Source: Phycisphaerae bacterium
GTDB lineage: Bacteria > Planctomycetota > Phycisphaerae > UBA1845 > PWPN01
Direction: 5' to 3'
Assembly (NCBI GenBank): GCA_030372985.1
Contig: JAUCQB010000100.1
Location: 1 to 53,617 of the forward strand
Length of the DNA: 53,617 nt
Position numbers and translations under genes: made by a program. Each line of letters starts with the position of its first letter. Position 1 is the first letter of the stretch. Positions 5,753 to 29,697 of the stretch are shown here, piece after piece. Under the pieces are notes generated by a model, which saw only the letters and a program-made list of their open reading frames with translations, was not told where the DNA came from and made no database searches.

Positions 5753-8700
5753 ATGTTCAAGGAAGTACCGACACAATTCGATTTTCCCAAGGCCGAGGCA
5801 GAGGTAACGCGGTTCTGGGCTGAGGCGGGCATCTACGAGAAATCGCTGAAGCAGCGCGAAGGTCGTCCGTCGTTCGTATTTTACGAAGGGCCGCCCACGG
5901 CCAACGGGTTGCCGCACCCGGGGCACTGCCTGACGCGGATCATCAAGGACGTTTTCCCGCGCTACAAGACGATGACCGGCCACTACTGCCACCGCAAGGC
6001 CGGCTGGGACACGCATGGTCTGCCGGTCGAGGCCGAAGTGTGCAAGGAACTCGGCATCCACACCAAGCAGGACATCGAGGCCTACGGCGTCGAGAAGTTC
6101 ATCCACCTCTGTCAGCAGAGTGTTTTCCGCTACACCAAGGAGTGGGAGGATCTGACTCGGCGGTTGGGTTTCTGGATCAACCTTGAGGAGGCCTACGTCA
6201 CCTACCATCAGTCCTATGTCGAGAGTGTCTGGTGGGCGCTCAAGACGCTGTTTGACAGGGGCCTGCTCTACCAGGGCCACAAGATCGTCTGGTGGTGGCC
6301 TCAGGGCGGAACAGCCTTGTCGTCGGCCGAGGTCGGCCAGGGCTACCGCGCGGTCGACGATCCTTCGATCACCGTGCGGTTCCGGGTGAAAGGTCAACCG
6401 AAGACCAGCCTGCTGGCCTGGACGACCACGCCCTGGACGCTGCCGAGCAACGTCGGGCTGGCCGTGCATCCCGAAGTGGAATACGCCCAGATTGCGGTCG
6501 AGGATGAGGAATTCATCCTCGCCAAGGCGCTCATTCCGGCAGTCTTCAAGGGCCTGCCGGTCGACATTGAGAAGGATGTGCGCACCATCAGGATCGTGAA
6601 GGGCTCCGAGTTGGTCGGCATGGAGTACGAACCGCTATTCGCCTATGCGAGGCCGGAAGGCGGCAAGGCTTACGAGGTGATCACGGCCGACTTTGTGACG
6701 CTCGATACCGGTACGGGCATCGTGCACATGGCCCCCGCGTTTGGCGAAGGCGACTACCGCATCGCTCGCGAGAAAGGCCTGGGGTTCCTGCAATTGATCA
6801 CCCCAGAGGGTAAGTTCTCGCCCGAGGCAACCGATTTCGCTGGACGATTCTGCAAGGAAGCCGACGCAGATATCATCCGCTGGCTCAAGGATAAGGGGCT
6901 GCTGCTGAAGCGCGAGCAGTATCGCCACGACTACCCGTTCTGCTGGCGGGCGGAAGACGACCCGCTCATCCAATACGCCCGCAAAAGCTGGTTCATCCGC
7001 ACGACCGAGTTCCGCGACGCCTTCCTGGCCAACAACCGGGAGATCAATTGGCTGCCCGAGCACATTCGCGACGGGCGGTTCGGGAACTTCCTGGAGAACA
7101 ATGTCGATTGGGCGTTGTCGCGGGAACGTTTCTGGGGCACACCGCTGCCGATCTGGGAATGTGAGAAGACCGGCAAACAGGAGGCGGTCGCGTCATATGC
7201 CGAATTGACCGCCAAGACAGGCGTCAGTGGCATGGATGTCTGGGAGAAGGCCAAGGCCGCCAATCCGGCTCTGATCGACGATCTCAAGGTCCACAAGCCG
7301 TACATCGACGCGATCACCTACGAGTCGCCTTTTGCCGAGGGTGCTCGGATGAGGCGAGTGCCGGAAGTGATCGACTGCTGGTTCGACAGCGGGGCGATGC
7401 CGTTTGCCCAGTGGGGCTATCCGCACAAGCCGGGCAGCGTCGAGTTGTTCAAGCGGCGGTTCCCGGCCGACTTCATCAGCGAGGCCATCGACCAGACCCG
7501 CGGGTGGTTCTACACCCTGCTGGCAATCAGCACGATGTTGTTTGGCGAGAAATCGGACCGCACCGGTGAGATGGGTAGGGCATGGTCGGAGCCGCCAAAG
7601 GCGGCGGAGACCTGCCGCTCCCAGCCGAATAACGCGGCAGGTCTCGGTCGTCGCGGCGACCTCGACGCTGCCCTACCTCCGCAATCTCCAATCTCGCATC
7701 TGCGATTCGAGGAGCCCTATCCCCACCCCTTCCGCAACTGCATCGTGCTCGGTCTGGTGTGCGGCGAGGACGGCAAGAAGCTCTCCAAGAGCAAGCGGAA
7801 CTACAAGGAGCCGACGTACATCTTCGACCGCGAAGGCGCGGACGCGATGCGCTGGTCGATGCTCAGCGGTCAGGCGCCGTGGACTGGGGCCCGCTTCAAG
7901 GAGGACTCCATCGCGACCGATCAGCGCGAGTTCCTGATCAAGCTGTACAACGTCTACAGCTTCTTTGTGATCTATGCGAACATTGACCAGTGGTCACCAG
8001 CCGGGTCCAGGCAGTCGGCCGGCGAGCTGAGTGAGCTGGATCATTGGATTCTCGCAGAGTTGAACCAGACGATCGCCGACATCCGGGCCTCGATGGACCG
8101 CTACGAGAACTACCCGGCCTGCCGGCGACTGGTGGATTTCGTCGACGGCCTGAGCAACTGGTACGTCCGCCGGTCGCGCGACCGGTTCTGGCGAAGCGGG
8201 ATGGACGCCGACAAGTACGCCGCGCATCAAACCCTGTGGACGTGCCTGAGCGAACTGAGCAAGGTGATTGCCCCGTTCGTGCCCTTTTTTGCCGAGTCTC
8301 TCTATCAGAATCTCGTTCGGTCGCAGTTCGCGGATGCCCCCGAGAGCGTTCACCTGTGCGATTACCCGGCGCCCGATGAGGGGGCGATCGACAAGCCGTT
8401 GTTGGAGGAGATGGCGGTTGTGCGCGAGATCGCCTCGCTCGGCCGATCCGCGCGGATGGACGCCAAAATCAAGGTCCGCCAGCCGCTGGCCGTGGTCGAG
8501 GTGGTGCTGGCCGATGCGTCGCATCGACAGTGGCTCGAAGGTCACCTGCCGCTCATCGCCGACGAGCTGAACGTCAAGCGGATCGAGTTCGCCACGAACG
8601 CCGACCAGTATGTGACTTACGAGGTCAAGGCGAACTTCAAGTCGATCGGTCCGAAGTTCGGCAAGCTGGCCCCGCAAATCCAGAAAACGCTGGCCACGGC

Positions 8701-9145
8701 GGACGCGGCCGGCTTGCGGCGGACGCTCGACGAGGCAGGCAAGGTGTCGCTCGACGTTGCCGGCCAAGCGGTCGAACTGACACCGGACGATGTGCAGGTG
8801 GCCCTCAAAGCCAAGCCCGGCTGGGCGGCCGCCCAGGGACGCACAACGGTGGTGGTACTCAGCATCGAGCTGACAGAGGACCTCAAGGCCGAGGGCCTGG
8901 CCCGCGACGTGGTTCACCTGATCCAGACCGCCCGCAAAGCCGAGAACCTGGACTACCAGGCCCGCATCCGGCTGCGAATCAACGCGGGCGGCCCGCTGGC
9001 AGAGGCCATCAAGGCCAACGCGGACTACATTCGCGGCGAGACCCTGGCGACCGAGCTGAAACTGGATGCCGGCCTAGCCGATGCTCCGCACACCGGCGAA
9101 GTCGAGGGAATGACGGTCGGGTTTACGGTTGAGGTGGTGGGATGA
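5753..9145 (+). CDS. ileS: Isoleucine--tRNA ligase with an in-frame repeat insertion
   Basis: IleRS charges tRNA-Ile in the cytoplasm. The 1130-residue protein has the class I signature as HPGH (about residue 54, in GLPHPGHC), the editing domain (TTTPWTLPSN, about 225; GTGIVHMAPAFGEGDY, about 325), the DCWFDSG motif (about 540) and KLSKS (about 676), followed by the anticodon-binding domain. The overall pattern resembles the eukaryote-like, mupirocin-resistant type 2 enzymes, which is an inference. Between FYTLLAISTMLFG and NCIVLGLVCGEDG, where other IleRS have only a few residues, about 45 extra residues appear. They are encoded by a palindromic repeat (7574-7677) and adjoining repeat-like sequence. 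The frame is kept. Confidence 0.97.
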   Translation: MFKEVPTQFDFPKAEAEVTRFWAEAGIYEKSLKQREGRPSFVFYEGPPTANGLPHPGHCLTRIIKDVFPRYKTMTGHYCHRKAGWDTHGLPVEAEVCKELGIHTKQDIEAYGVEKFIHLCQQSVFRYTKEWEDLTRRLGFWINLEEAYVTYHQSYVESVWWALKTLFDRGLLYQGHKIVWWWPQGGTALSSAEVGQGYRAVDDPSITVRFRVKGQPKTSLLAWTTTPWTLPSNVGLAVHPEVEYAQIAVEDEEFILAKALIPAVFKGLPVDIEKDVRTIRIVKGSELVGMEYEPLFAYARPEGGKAYEVITADFVTLDTGTGIVHMAPAFGEGDYRIAREKGLGFLQLITPEGKFSPEATDFAGRFCKEADADIIRWLKDKGLLLKREQYRHDYPFCWRAEDDPLIQYARKSWFIRTTEFRDAFLANNREINWLPEHIRDGRFGNFLENNVDWALSRERFWGTPLPIWECEKTGKQEAVASYAELTAKTGVSGMDVWEKAKAANPALIDDLKVHKPYIDAITYESPFAEGARMRRVPEVIDCWFDSGAMPFAQWGYPHKPGSVELFKRRFPADFISEAIDQTRGWFYTLLAISTMLFGEKSDRTGEMGRAWSEPPKAAETCRSQPNNAAGLGRRGDLDAALPPQSPISHLRFEEPYPHPFRNCIVLGLVCGEDGKKLSKSKRNYKEPTYIFDREGADAMRWSMLSGQAPWTGARFKEDSIATDQREFLIKLYNVYSFFVIYANIDQWSPAGSRQSAGELSELDHWILAELNQTIADIRASMDRYENYPACRRLVDFVDGLSNWYVRRSRDRFWRSGMDADKYAAHQTLWTCLSELSKVIAPFVPFFAESLYQNLVRSQFADAPESVHLCDYPAPDEGAIDKPLLEEMAVVREIASLGRSARMDAKIKVRQPLAVVEVVLADASHRQWLEGHLPLIADELNVKRIEFATNADQYVTYEVKANFKSIGPKFGKLAPQIQKTLATADAAGLRRTLDEAGKVSLDVAGQAVELTPDDVQVALKAKPGWAAAQGRTTVVVLSIELTEDLKAEGLARDVVHLIQTARKAENLDYQARIRLRINAGGPLAEAIKANADYIRGETLATELKLDAGLADAPHTGEVEGMTVGFTVEVVG
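7574..7677 (+). repeat. Palindromic element inserted in frame within ileS
   Basis: Outer arms GGTAGGGCA (7574-7582) and TGCCCTACC (7669-7677) are perfect inverted repeats. Inner arms GAGACCTGCCGC (7607-7618) and GCGGCAGGTCTC (7634-7645) form a second perfect 12-bp stem. Two smaller hairpins (GCCGCCAAAGGCGGC at 7591-7605; GGTCG...CGACC at 7646-7661) are nested. A related segment at 29637-29697 (opposite orientation) and a shorter relative near 10788-10860 indicate a dispersed family. No transposase is encoded. Confidence 0.85.
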
Positions 9146-10787: not shown

Positions 10788-10860
10788 GCGGAATGGATTC
10801 CGCGAAGAGTGCGACCGAGAAGGGATTCTCGGTCGAGCGGACCTCGATACTGCCCTACCT
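10788..10860 (+). repeat. Hairpin-rich element related to the ileS insertion
   Basis: Two perfect hairpins (GCGGAATGGATTCCGC at 10788-10803; ACCGAGAA...TTCTCGGT at 10814-10833) are followed by a tail, CGGACCTCGATACTGCCCTACCT. The tail closely resembles the end of the ileS element (GCGACCTCGACGCTGCCCTACCT). It lies in the 208-base gap between two genes. Confidence 0.55.
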
Positions 10861-26845: not shown

Positions 26846-26894
26846 CCCTCTTGTTCTGTTGTCCCTCACTGGTCGGCCGATTATCTTACCAGCC

Positions 26895-29636
26895 ATGAGC
26901 AACGCGAAAAGCATTCTAACATCGGCCCTGGCGGTTTGCCTTGCCTTGGCCTTTTCAACGGGTTGTGCGCCGCAGCGGTTCCGCAAACCCGCTCCGGCGG
27001 AAGACGGCGTTTCATTGATCGCCGAGCCGGTTCTGGGCAAGTGCGCCGGGCAGGAGGACGGAGCCAGGCAGCTTCACGTCATGGAGTGGGTCGCCAAGCG
27101 GGCATGGTACATTCTAGGCCAGCCCTATGAACGAGCGGACTTCAAGGGCCCGCCGGAGATGAAGGTCCAGGCCGGCGATGACTGCACCGTGGTCACCAAC
27201 ACGGTGGCCTGCGGCGGCGTTCCGCTCCGCAACCAGATCGTCACCTTCGAGATCGAGCAGCGGGACAAACCGATCATCGTCGTGCTGCGGTCCACGGACG
27301 CATTCGGCGAGGTGATGCTCGAATTGGATCTGCACAAGGGCACGGCCCGGGTCAGGTCCGTCACCGTCAGCCGTTCCATGATCGGCGGGCAGTCGCATTC
27401 ATCGCCGATGCCGGAGGAATCATCCAACCGCATCATAAAGTCGGCCCGGTTCACGCCCGTGGCCGCCGGTTGGCATTCACTCAAGATCGAAGCGCGCGGC
27501 GTGGCGATGACTCTATGGGCCGATGGCGCCGAGATTCTTCGTTTCAATGATCCCGACCCGGCCGGCGGCAAATACGGCTTCGGATCGACCGGCGCCGTGG
27601 CGGTTCGCAATGTCAATCAGTGGGAGTTGATCTCCAACGCCGAGAAAGCTCGACGCGAGTCATGCCTGCGGGACATGCACAAGTTCTGCAAGGGGCTCGA
27701 CGCCGAATACGAGAGCGACGTCAGCAAGGCTAACCAGGTCGAGGTGACCGCCGGCGGCGTGAAGTGGACCTGGCCGCCGACAGGGGCAACGGCCGTGGTC
27801 GCTGCCGAAAAGGGCGTGCCGCGAGGCGTGGTCAAGGCCGGGCTCTACGGCAATGACACCCTGATCGACGGCGCTCTTCCCGAGATTGCGGTCACCGCGT
27901 CGAATGGCGACGTTTTCCGCGCCGATCCTGATGGGCAAGTCGCTTTCCAAGCCGATCCGCTCGGTCTGCGCATGTCCCTGCCCCTGCTCAGCGGCAGCGG
28001 GCAGAAGGCGACCGCGCATGTGGCCGCCCAATTCACGGTGCTGACGGTCTGGTGGTGGACGGTGACGGTGGAGGGCGTCGAGCCGAAGCAGATCCGGGCA
28101 TTCGTCGGTGTTGCCCCGCAGTTCGCCGAGCCAACCGATCAGAAAGCCTCATCCGAGGACGGAATGGCCGTAGCCATCGCCTCCGGGAAGAAGGGGAACA
28201 CGTACTACAAGCACAACGCCAAGGCCGGTGTGCTGCTGAAGTCGCTGATGCCCGAGGTGGCGCTCGGTTCGCGATCTGGCGGCAAGGGCGAAGTGGTTCT
28301 CGTGGCCGACGGCGGCAAACTGCGATTCGCGACGCTCTGGCTTCCGGCCCAGCCGCTCAATCGCATCGGCTTCACCACCCGGATGGTTCACTACATCAAA
28401 TACCCCGAAGGCCCGATCCAGCACTGGCGCCGCATGCCCAGCTTCCAGGAGTACCCCGACAACGTCGACCTGGCCCGATTCAAGGCCAACGGCACAGAGG
28501 CGATGGTCTGGCACCACACCTGGGTCAGCAACGATTACCGGGATCGCGAGGGTTTTCTGACGAATCATCGAGAGATGAAGCGGGCAATGCGAGAGACGCA
28601 TCGGTTGGGTATGGCCGCGATCGGCTACATCGGCATCGTGCCGGGGCGAAGCTCGCTGCTGCGCTTCGATGATGCGCTCGATGACTATCAGAAGAACTGG
28701 GACCTGCAAGACTTCACTTTCTACGCCACGCCAGGCCGCTGGCAGGAGTTCCTGCCCTGGATGACCGACTACTGGTGCCGCGAGTACGGCCTGGACGGCT
28801 TCTACGCCGACGGCGGGCTGGGCGGGGCGACATGGGGACGGCTGAGGCCGGAAAAGGGGACAGGCCCGATTTGCCGGGACGGCCCGGAGGGTGCTTCGCA
28901 CATAGCGGGCCTGTCCCCTTTTCCCCCGGAAGATGCGAACCTCTCGCTTGACGAGATCCAGCACCGTTTTTACTACCGGATCAAGAAGGTCCTGCAGCGG
29001 CACAACGCGAGATTCGGGCTCGAGCAGTGGGGCGGCAGCCACGACATGCTGATCACCGGCTTCTACGACTGCCGCATGATCGGCGAGTCGTTTCAGGAGG
29101 CCCCGCCCGAGGACTACCGCAACAGCTACAACGCCCTGCTGACCGGCACGCCCTTCAAGATGTACGGCATGCGCGAGACGTCGCAGAACCCATACAACAT
29201 CGCCATGGCGGCAGTCTGCATGAGCGACATCCAAGTGTGCAGCGGCAACGGGGCGTGGGGTGACGTGGCCGACACCGCCGAGACCTGGAAACGCGTCCGG
29301 CCGTTGTGGGACCTGCTCGAATCGGTCGATTTCGACAATCTGATCGAGGCCCGGCCGTGGTACGCCCAGGAACTGGTCAGCGGCGAAGGCTTCTACGCCG
29401 GCAACTATACGATGCCCAATCGCGTGCTTGTGTTCCTGGCCAACAAATCAGAGACGCCCGGACCATTCGAGGTGCGAATCGACGTGGATCACCTGCCCGA
29501 GATCAACGGCCAATGGCACGTCCGCTATGTGCTTGGGCGCAAGGGCGAACTGGGTCCGCTCGGCGACGGCAGGATGAAGCTTACCCTACCGGGCCTGCAC
29601 GGCGGGCCGATTGGCCTGGGACTGATCCCCCGGTAA
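26895..29636 (+). CDS. Lipoprotein with glycoside-hydrolase-like C-terminal half and repeat insertion
   Basis: The 913-residue protein starts MSNAKSILTSALAVCLALAF and reaches STGC, a lipobox with Cys24. The N-terminal half looks beta-rich: residues about 60-260 resemble a concanavalin-like jelly roll with SARFTPVAAGWHSLKIEARG, then a second beta region. The C-terminal half has TIM-barrel-like stretches (WHHTWVSNDYRDREG, MAAIGYIGIVPG, YGLDGFYADGG, ARFGLEQWGG), similar in style to glycosidases of the GH36/66-like superfamily. D in DGFYADG could be catalytic, which is inferred. After GGATWGRL about 25 residues are encoded by a palindrome (28851-28923), then family-like sequence resumes. It is presumably an outer-membrane enzyme acting on a polysaccharide. 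ATG 26895 is chosen over a TTG at 26859. Confidence 0.8.
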   Translation: MSNAKSILTSALAVCLALAFSTGCAPQRFRKPAPAEDGVSLIAEPVLGKCAGQEDGARQLHVMEWVAKRAWYILGQPYERADFKGPPEMKVQAGDDCTVVTNTVACGGVPLRNQIVTFEIEQRDKPIIVVLRSTDAFGEVMLELDLHKGTARVRSVTVSRSMIGGQSHSSPMPEESSNRIIKSARFTPVAAGWHSLKIEARGVAMTLWADGAEILRFNDPDPAGGKYGFGSTGAVAVRNVNQWELISNAEKARRESCLRDMHKFCKGLDAEYESDVSKANQVEVTAGGVKWTWPPTGATAVVAAEKGVPRGVVKAGLYGNDTLIDGALPEIAVTASNGDVFRADPDGQVAFQADPLGLRMSLPLLSGSGQKATAHVAAQFTVLTVWWWTVTVEGVEPKQIRAFVGVAPQFAEPTDQKASSEDGMAVAIASGKKGNTYYKHNAKAGVLLKSLMPEVALGSRSGGKGEVVLVADGGKLRFATLWLPAQPLNRIGFTTRMVHYIKYPEGPIQHWRRMPSFQEYPDNVDLARFKANGTEAMVWHHTWVSNDYRDREGFLTNHREMKRAMRETHRLGMAAIGYIGIVPGRSSLLRFDDALDDYQKNWDLQDFTFYATPGRWQEFLPWMTDYWCREYGLDGFYADGGLGGATWGRLRPEKGTGPICRDGPEGASHIAGLSPFPPEDANLSLDEIQHRFYYRIKKVLQRHNARFGLEQWGGSHDMLITGFYDCRMIGESFQEAPPEDYRNSYNALLTGTPFKMYGMRETSQNPYNIAMAAVCMSDIQVCSGNGAWGDVADTAETWKRVRPLWDLLESVDFDNLIEARPWYAQELVSGEGFYAGNYTMPNRVLVFLANKSETPGPFEVRIDVDHLPEINGQWHVRYVLGRKGELGPLGDGRMKLTLPGLHGGPIGLGLIPR
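28851..28923 (+). repeat. Palindromic REP-like element inserted in frame in a coding gene
   Basis: Perfect 18-bp inverted arms GAAAAGGGGACAGGCCCG (28851-28868) and its complement (28906-28923) enclose a 37-base centre. The centre carries two further hairpins (CCGGG-ACGG-CCCGG and GTGC-TTC-GCAC). AAAAGGGGACAGGC ends are known from REP-like elements mobilised by RAYT (IS200-like) transposases in many genomes. No such transposase is in the window. Confidence 0.88.
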
Positions 29637-29697
29637 GTAGGGCATCGAGCCTGCCTCGCCGCAGGTGAGGTCGCCCCGGCGACCGAGACCTGCCGCT
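29637..29697 (-). repeat. Copy of the ileS palindromic element, inverted
   Basis: Read on the minus strand, the segment GCGGCAGGTCTCGGTCGCCG...GCGACCTC...GATGCCCTAC matches the right half of the ileS element, with a short extra hairpin (CCTGCGGCGAGG). It starts directly after the TAA of the lipoprotein gene, in the gap before the convergent proline-rich membrane protein gene. Confidence 0.8.

Follow-up and report, generated by a model that had tools for sequence, protein, structure and literature searches.

The isoleucyl-tRNA synthetase (IleRS) gene ileS of the window, i.e., of the whole stretch of 53,617 nucleotides of DNA that was analyzed, contains a REPIN that is read through in frame. 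With a probability of roughly 0.7, we regard this REPIN as mobile DNA that likely landed by single-strand transposition of the RAYT (REP-associated tyrosine transposase) type, in an enzyme that probably still works and in a loop that would serve as a shelter. In relatives and in the protein database, complete RAYTs were found in frame inside host enzymes, in the relative G037 in the same loop. The ileS locus of the window comprises the following features:

5753..9145, forward strand: ileS, IleRS, an uninterrupted ORF of 1130 aa
7559..7699, forward strand: IleRS residues 603-649, a predicted flexible loop (pLDDT <50 in the AlphaFold model)
7574..7677, forward strand: REPIN of 104 bp, two convergent GTAG-tagged REPs, in frame as IleRS residues 608-642
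7575..7616, forward strand: REP-A unit (GTAG plus imperfect hairpin), 42 nt, 68.9 bits
7617..7635, no strand: variable spacer separating REP-A and REP-B
7636..7676, reverse strand: REP-B unit, 41 nt, inverted, a variant of REP-A, 54.4 bits
7678..7715, forward strand: adjoining sequence, the remainder of the extra loop, outside the REPIN unit
7778..7792, forward strand: KLSKS catalytic motif

The initial annotation had described a foldable 104-bp inverted-repeat element in frame in ileS, and this was confirmed, with 7574-7677 lying within the ORF 5753-9145. As single-stranded DNA, positions 7560-7715 folded better than 200 of 200 shuffles (z -4.4). The REPIN-coded peptide reads GRAWSEPPKAAETC...LGRRGDLDAALP. 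While the repeat itself encodes about 35 residues, the window loop exceeds the shortest loops in relatives by about 44 residues; approximately 45 added residues had been proposed initially. The insert had also been placed directly before KLSKS; it does lie upstream of the motif, but this wording was loose, as 33 residues separate the end of the REPIN from it.

By sequence, 8c8v (IleRS2, the type 2 enzyme of Priestia megaterium) was the best solved relative of the window IleRS. At the loop, window residues 599 and 659 align to residues 571 and 573 of 8c8v, with one residue between them. In the AlphaFold model of the window IleRS (mean pLDDT of 86.4; 44 sequences), residues 603-649 were the sole segment of at least three residues with a pLDDT <50. 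The insert, residues 608-642, thus falls in a predicted flexible loop, the outcome for which the initial annotation had suggested a structure model as a check. An alignment with relatives had been suggested as well, and it confirmed the insertion: measured from LF to YPHP, the loop comprises 58 residues in the window and 14 in the relatives G006 and G008. Relatives having the same residues and no repeat elsewhere, which the initial annotation had named as contrary evidence, were not encountered. The relatives compared are without these residues and the repeat is absent from them or nearly so, which supports the earlier proposal that a multi-copy non-coding repeat is now part of IleRS.

The loop could be extracted from 27 of the 30 IleRS loci that were fetched (L075-L077 did not match the pattern). 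In G002, it holds a different inverted repeat of 88 bp with at least 91 matches in that genome (both strands counted; 40 of 94 candidates scored), and in G011 a third, shorter repeat with 7 matches including itself. Eighty named IleRS loci were also compared, 44 from Bacillota and 28 from Planctomycetota; five, one of them planctomycete, gave no value for the distance from GWF[YH] to K[LM]SK. This distance was 30 in 44/44 Bacillota, while it ranged from 34 to 129 in 27 of the 28 planctomycete loci. Because the loop is short in some relatives, has 58 residues in the window and holds other repeats in further relatives, and because of the spread from 34 to 129 in planctomycetes, the ileS loop appears to be a permissive site that different repeats have entered independently. 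Inserts of about 100 residues that are not obviously repeat-derived were seen in the same loop at L236 (ileS of G044), L102 and L105. As a separate observation, the IleRS of L135, from a record titled as a Klebsiella pneumoniae metagenome-assembled genome (MAG), is 47% identical to that of the window and stood among distant phyla; this record is probably mislabelled.

The REP family was characterized in the window's own genome (6.45 Mb in 272 contigs, with an estimated contamination of 6.4%). Reading 30 loci side by side gave the REP-A unit consensus GTAG-GGCA-n-GGTC-nnn-GCCGCC-nnn-GGCGGC-nnn-GACC-TGCC. Many copies consist of two such units face to face, and singlets are also present; the solo REP-A copies L026, L028 and L029 stop at the identical base, which defines the unit ends. 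A reading of the 104 bp as a cloverleaf or cruciform RNA or as an attC-like site was excluded, since a single REP constitutes the unit, as the solo copies demonstrate. No Rfam family at the gathering score and no tRNA was found in the window. The GTAG foot was present in 17/17 aligned REP units, which had been picked by a pattern starting with GTAG. The hairpin cells were 94.3% paired, compared with at most 49.6% when slid, and hairpin pair 18-30 covaries (C-G in 7 and U-A in 8 of the 17 units).

A search of the own genome with the whole element gave at least 72 matches (both strands counted; 40 of 146 candidates scored). At E<=0.01, and with scoring of 150 among 11,710 first-look candidates, the covariance model of the REP unit detected at least 122 units, which provides the genome-wide copy count that the initial annotation had recommended. 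Applied to relatives, with up to 150 candidates scored in each genome, the same model gave at least 2 units in G006 and none in 11 others. Related copies had also been noted at 10788 and 29637 of the window. They are real, but weak: with 18-19 bits (E of 0.06-0.10), as compared to 68.9 and 54.4 bits for the ileS units, they represent a half unit and a remnant:

10822..10858, reverse strand: decayed single REP-B (half unit)
29637..29693, forward strand: rearranged REP remnant, beginning on the base after the TAA of the ORF 26859-29636

To what extent the family resides in genes was examined at 39 distinct REP loci (40 loci, one site twice), with a Pfam scan of 20 REP-spanning frames from 17 loci; the frames spanning L022, L025, L026 and L090 and the second frames of L005, L014 and L095 were left out of the scan. 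At 3 of the 39 loci, namely ileS, queG and waaA, the REPs were shown to lie inside genes. The queG frame (L005) matched TIGR00276 with 311 bits (cut-off of 200), split in two stretches and better at 138-363 after the REPIN. In the waaA frame (L008), Kdo-transferase models matched around the REPIN, the best with 337 bits under its cut-off of 438, and one model spans the insert. All three genes read the REPIN in one common frame and orientation, and the peptides are near copies of each other. Since 66 of 108 frames over 18 full-length REPINs were open, compared with a fraction of 0.51 in shuffled sequence, the REPIN is only mildly friendly to being read through. A translated search of the own genome gave 93 matches, and seven further candidates were inspected. 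In six of these, the stop-to-stop frame enters the REP at residue 4-25, so that the REP probably lies ahead of the true start; the seventh frame has 26 aa. According to the Pfam scan, the REP precedes the domain in L006, L017, L024, L003 (RtcB) and the S1-domain frame of L092. Apart from queG and waaA, the remaining REP-spanning frames among the 20 scanned showed no domain or none surrounding the REP.

The own genome was also searched for the transposase of the window REP. It contains 17 Y1_Tnp matches (L031-L047), 15 of them over the cut-off and in frames of 177-323 aa. No window REP was found beside these 17 loci beyond chance (flanks of at most 1.5 kb); the single match, in the flank of L045, was at chance level (E of 0.71). 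Thus, since no RAYT with this REP alongside was found in the genome, the window element is named a REPIN from its structure and copy number and not as a proven RAYT substrate. Three properties of REPs and REPINs are present: a GTAG foot with an imperfect palindrome, inverted doublets with a short spacer along with singlets, and a high copy number mostly outside genes (at least 122 units; 3/39 examined loci shown to be inside genes). The fourth, a RAYT gene flanked by the same REP, was not seen among L031-L047 within flanks of at most 1.5 kb. The element had been called active or recently active. This is no more than plausible: among the 122 units listed for the own genome, the ileS REP-A has the second-highest covariance-model score, but no transposase gene adjoining this REP was found. 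L045 itself, on contig C55, is a free RAYT flanked by another family of GTAG-tagged REPs (GTAGGGCGGGCTGTGCCCGCC). At L034, L036, L037 and L043, Y1 transposase genes lie between short inverted repeats (e.g., AAAGGGGACATTC at L034), like the TIR-flanked relatives of RAYTs described in PMC3733652.

At the site of the window REPIN, the ileS loop of G037 holds a complete RAYT in frame between inverted REPs and without a stop. In the ileS of G025, another RAYT occupies a second site, located between the motifs F(V/I)KFPL and LLVWTTTPWT. Ahead of this RAYT, fourteen tandem 42-bp units that are GSIGVPPVPSAQSP-like occupy approximately residues 228-425 (L079); they look like a coding minisatellite inside IleRS, REP-derived in appearance. 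The query of a protein search was restricted to residues 690-885 of the G037 protein, and candidates of 0.55 to 1.75 times its length were considered. It yielded 134 long proteins at E<=0.001 among 395 candidates; 120 were listed, and all 120 carry a RAYT domain. The number of domains is 121, since P0002 has two; this 1682-aa IleRS has one RAYT at each of the two IleRS sites. Hosts were called by flanking motifs, with P0026 and P0060 assigned after a second look. The domains reside in ValRS (59), DUF1156-type DNA methylases (21), IleRS before KMSKS (17), IleRS at the second site (12), PurH (4), AlaRS (3), LeuRS (2) and three others, i.e., Hsp70 (P0082), an N6-methylase (P0063) and one further DUF1156 protein (P0114). 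The largest contigs with embedded RAYTs measure 4.85 Mb (P0023) and 4.62 Mb (P0032), and therefore assembly error is no general explanation of embedded RAYTs. The AlphaFold model of an IleRS with a RAYT (P0014; 27 sequences) was poor, with a mean pLDDT of 65.6, and its RAYT part (690-810) was better than the linkers. A Foldseek search with this model gave tRNA synthetases alone in the best 50 of 984 rows.

Because protein databases list open frames only, the protein search is biased toward uninterrupted RAYT hosts; as a control at the DNA level, genomes were searched by six-frame translation, with stops read through and counted. Among 114 genomes of the window's order, 38 gave a match at E<=1e-20, of which 28 were of RAYT type and 10 arose via the IleRS flank of the query alone. 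The 27 RAYT loci L178-L204 comprise 13 in PurH, 7 at the second IleRS site (L186 assigned by hand), 3 at the first IleRS site, L202 (RarA/MgsA), L203 (MmeI-like methylase), L200, and L204, for which no family was found. In 397 genomes of the class, the RAYT of P0032 gave at least 68 matches in 55 genomes at E<=1e-25; no more than 9 candidates were scored in each genome, and the search answers the open-frame bias in part. None of these 68 matches contained a stop codon in the six-frame translation. Frames of at least 395 aa surrounded 62 of them, and frames of 176-233 aa the other 6. A long frame alone is no proof of a host, because the 395-aa frame of L204 showed no Pfam domain. In the one-contig genome G324, the RAYT lies in a 1396-aa frame. 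RdgB/HAM1 was found as a further host at L210 by NCBIfam, in two stretches under the cut-offs; by flanking motifs, L210, L223, L227, L232 and L234 were all assigned to RdgB/HAM1.

None of the 80 named IleRS loci (44 Bacillota, 28 Planctomycetota) contained a RAYT, so that a RAYT in IleRS is rare outside the clades with embedded RAYTs at a sampling of 80 loci. The in-gene RAYT subfamily was also absent from the window's own family (0/13 members at E<=1e-20; 0/10 listed in the 397-genome search). Thus, judged by these searches, the window REPIN appears to share the site and the layout with the embedded REPtrons, i.e., RAYT genes flanked by REPs, and not a RAYT family or descent.

The embedded domains have the characteristics of RAYTs. 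Regarding the HuH motif and catalytic Tyr, both HuH His, the Tyr and a Trp were present in 147/147 domains (141 different; mean column consensus of 65%), and the stricter motif YxxxNP in 111 of 121 database domains. The RAYT family model NF047646 (REP_Tyr_transpos; cut-off of 80) was exceeded by 3 of 5 proteins tried (80.7, 86.5 and 87.3), with P0001 (78.4) and P0023 (69) staying under it. Flanking REPs were seen in the 11 loci viewed as DNA: hairpins with a stem of at least 6 flanked the RAYT on both sides in 7 loci and on a single side in 1; the other 3 had no such hairpin, and there imperfect inverted REP sequence was read by eye.

The history of these domains was followed by comparison with their hosts. 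In the RAYT tree, which was built from few columns and left 71 of 138 inner branches open, RAYTs grouped by host and site with 15 changes, compared to an average of 80.7 in shuffles, none of which (0/200) gave so few; near-copies add to this clustering. Host and RAYT distances agreed for ValRS (Mantel r of 0.39; 0/999), while the Mantel test was not significant for IleRS (0.26, 64/999, and -0.07, 713/999) and the methylases (0.22, 105/999). P0015 and P0029, with RAYTs at one site, have hosts that are 89% identical and RAYTs that are 58% identical. For the DUF1156-type methylases P0047-P0049, host identities of 77-87% contrast with 100% identical RAYTs, a pattern for which recent homing or gene conversion is possible. 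Within one genus, G037 has a RAYT at the window loop and G044 has none. Taken together, the host clustering, the partial Mantel agreement and these three comparisons fit embedded RAYTs that reside at fixed sites and are repeatedly gained, lost and replaced there.

These data suggest the following course of events. REPINs and REPtrons would land by single-strand transposition; an insertion in a surface loop that keeps the frame and brings no stop would presumably be tolerated, and such hits would survive. Once within a gene that the cell cannot lose, an element would be transcribed and translated with its host, and we infer that only a precise, frame-keeping deletion could remove it. Over time, REPs would find shelter in such loops, as would the transposase itself in other families of the class; this lifestyle would resemble that of inteins without splicing. 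The window REPIN would be the passenger form, REP-spacer-REP, and the in-frame REPtron would have the form REP-RAYT-REP, with the transposase gene replacing the spacer. Accordingly worded for the window, its REPIN was likely moved by a transposase, for which a RAYT-type enzyme is the candidate, and loops in enzymes of this kind, which are probably essential, likely offer mobile DNA a safe place to stay. The wider form of this proposal is tentative. It holds that there is a class of REPtrons with an intein-like, non-splicing life, in which catalytically intact HUH transposases at fixed sites of essential enzymes would be kept and expressed with the host gene, and REPINs would be non-autonomous passengers of the same loops.

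A simpler account, rather unlikely in our estimate, is that REPs and REPtrons insert everywhere and that hits keeping the frame in loops merely survive, with no gain to the element. Survival of harmless insertions alone would indeed yield much of the same pattern; the low share of examined REP loci shown inside genes (3/39, with 20 frames from 17 loci scanned and a few more possibly missed) agrees with it, as does a loop that varies freely in planctomycetes (34-129 to K[LM]SK) but measures 30 in 44/44 Bacillota. However, members of the in-gene RAYT subfamily almost always occupy a long frame (62/68) instead of lying mostly outside genes, and their recurrence at few fixed sites and proteins together with the host clustering (15 versus 80.7 changes, 0/200), to which near-copies contribute, exceeds what would be expected from random survival. 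Domestication, by which the embedded RAYT or the REPIN peptide would by now contribute to the function of the host enzyme, in nucleic-acid binding or regulation, is improbable. The retention of the catalytic residues in 147/147 domains and the partial congruence of host and RAYT in ValRS speak for it, yet a structural role would need no catalytic Tyr, and the hosts (tRNA synthetases, PurH, RdgB, RarA, Hsp70, DNA methylases) have no common function. Moreover, hosts of the same genus differ in the presence of the RAYT (G037 and G044), and close hosts carry unlike RAYTs at one site (P0015 and P0029).

Removal of the insert from the mRNA or the protein, in the manner of an intron or intein and leaving a mature enzyme without it, is very improbable. 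Splicing is known from IStrons of the related IS200/IS605 group, but the DNA-level matches keep both the frame and the absence of stops, neither of which an intron would need. No intein (Hint) splicing domain was found in the Pfam lists of the 120 proteins or among the families named for 9 proteins scanned, and no Rfam match at the gathering score was obtained in the window or in 8 loci with embedded RAYTs. An error of assembly or binning is hardly credible, even though the own genome is a metagenome assembly in 272 contigs with an estimated contamination of 6.4%: the ileS frame is intact, three genes have the element in frame, and comparable inserts occur on the contigs of 4.85 and 4.62 Mb and in the 1396-aa frame of the one-contig genome G324.

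To our knowledge, the persistence of RAYTs in bacterial lineages is an open question in the REPIN-RAYT literature. For at least one subfamily, residence in genes that cannot be lost would answer it directly and in a way that can be tested. The embedded elements also supply natural examples of core translation enzymes that contain an entire transposase domain or a loop encoded by a repeat and whose activity can be assayed. In inteins with a homing endonuclease, a DNA-moving enzyme is likewise encoded in frame within essential genes, at fixed positions, a trait that the embedded RAYTs share. In contrast to inteins, no splicing domain was seen in the latter, a single-strand HUH transposase takes the place of the homing endonuclease, and the insert is predicted to be retained. 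In the literature searched at the level of titles and abstract openings, outside most subscription journals and bioRxiv, no RAYT inside an aminoacyl-tRNA synthetase or other essential enzyme was described. One survey (PMC6006769) discarded unexpectedly long RAYT proteins as fusions or annotation errors; surveys of this kind may lose exactly the embedded cases.

Regarding the repeat itself, the initial annotation had pointed to Rickettsia palindromic elements (RPE). The likeness lies in the way they work, as both are palindromic repeats in frame in housekeeping genes, but the window element is not a member and is instead a pair of GTAG-tagged REPs. In PMC3733652, intragenic R. conorii repeats are grouped with the CGTC-tagged REPs, which are reported there without associated transposase genes; the window element, with a GTAG foot in 17/17 units, does not have the CGTC-type end. 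Its layout corresponds to that of the GTAG-tagged REPs and REPINs/BIMEs, as outlined in PMC3116915 (Bertels and Rainey 2011) and PMC3733652 (Di Nocera 2013): a GTAG foot, an imperfect hairpin, an inverted doublet, a high copy number and some singlets. It differs from known REPINs in being a lineage-own sequence family (absent or nearly so in 12 relatives) and in that no adjoining cognate RAYT was found. Intragenic REPs, including those in tRNA synthetases, are on record in PMC3733652, whose passages on REPs, as far as consulted, describe no in-frame REPtron inside an essential enzyme. The embedded RAYTs share the HuH and Tyr motifs, the match to NF047646 and the inverted REPs with known REPtrons, i.e., RAYT/TnpA_REP genes flanked by REPs. 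Unlike in these, the reading frame of an essential enzyme continues across the whole embedded unit, which has no stop codon of its own, forms an internal domain of that enzyme and is found repeatedly at fixed sites. Taken alone, the window element adds a new family to a known kind of repeat, and the embedded REPtrons represent a new form.
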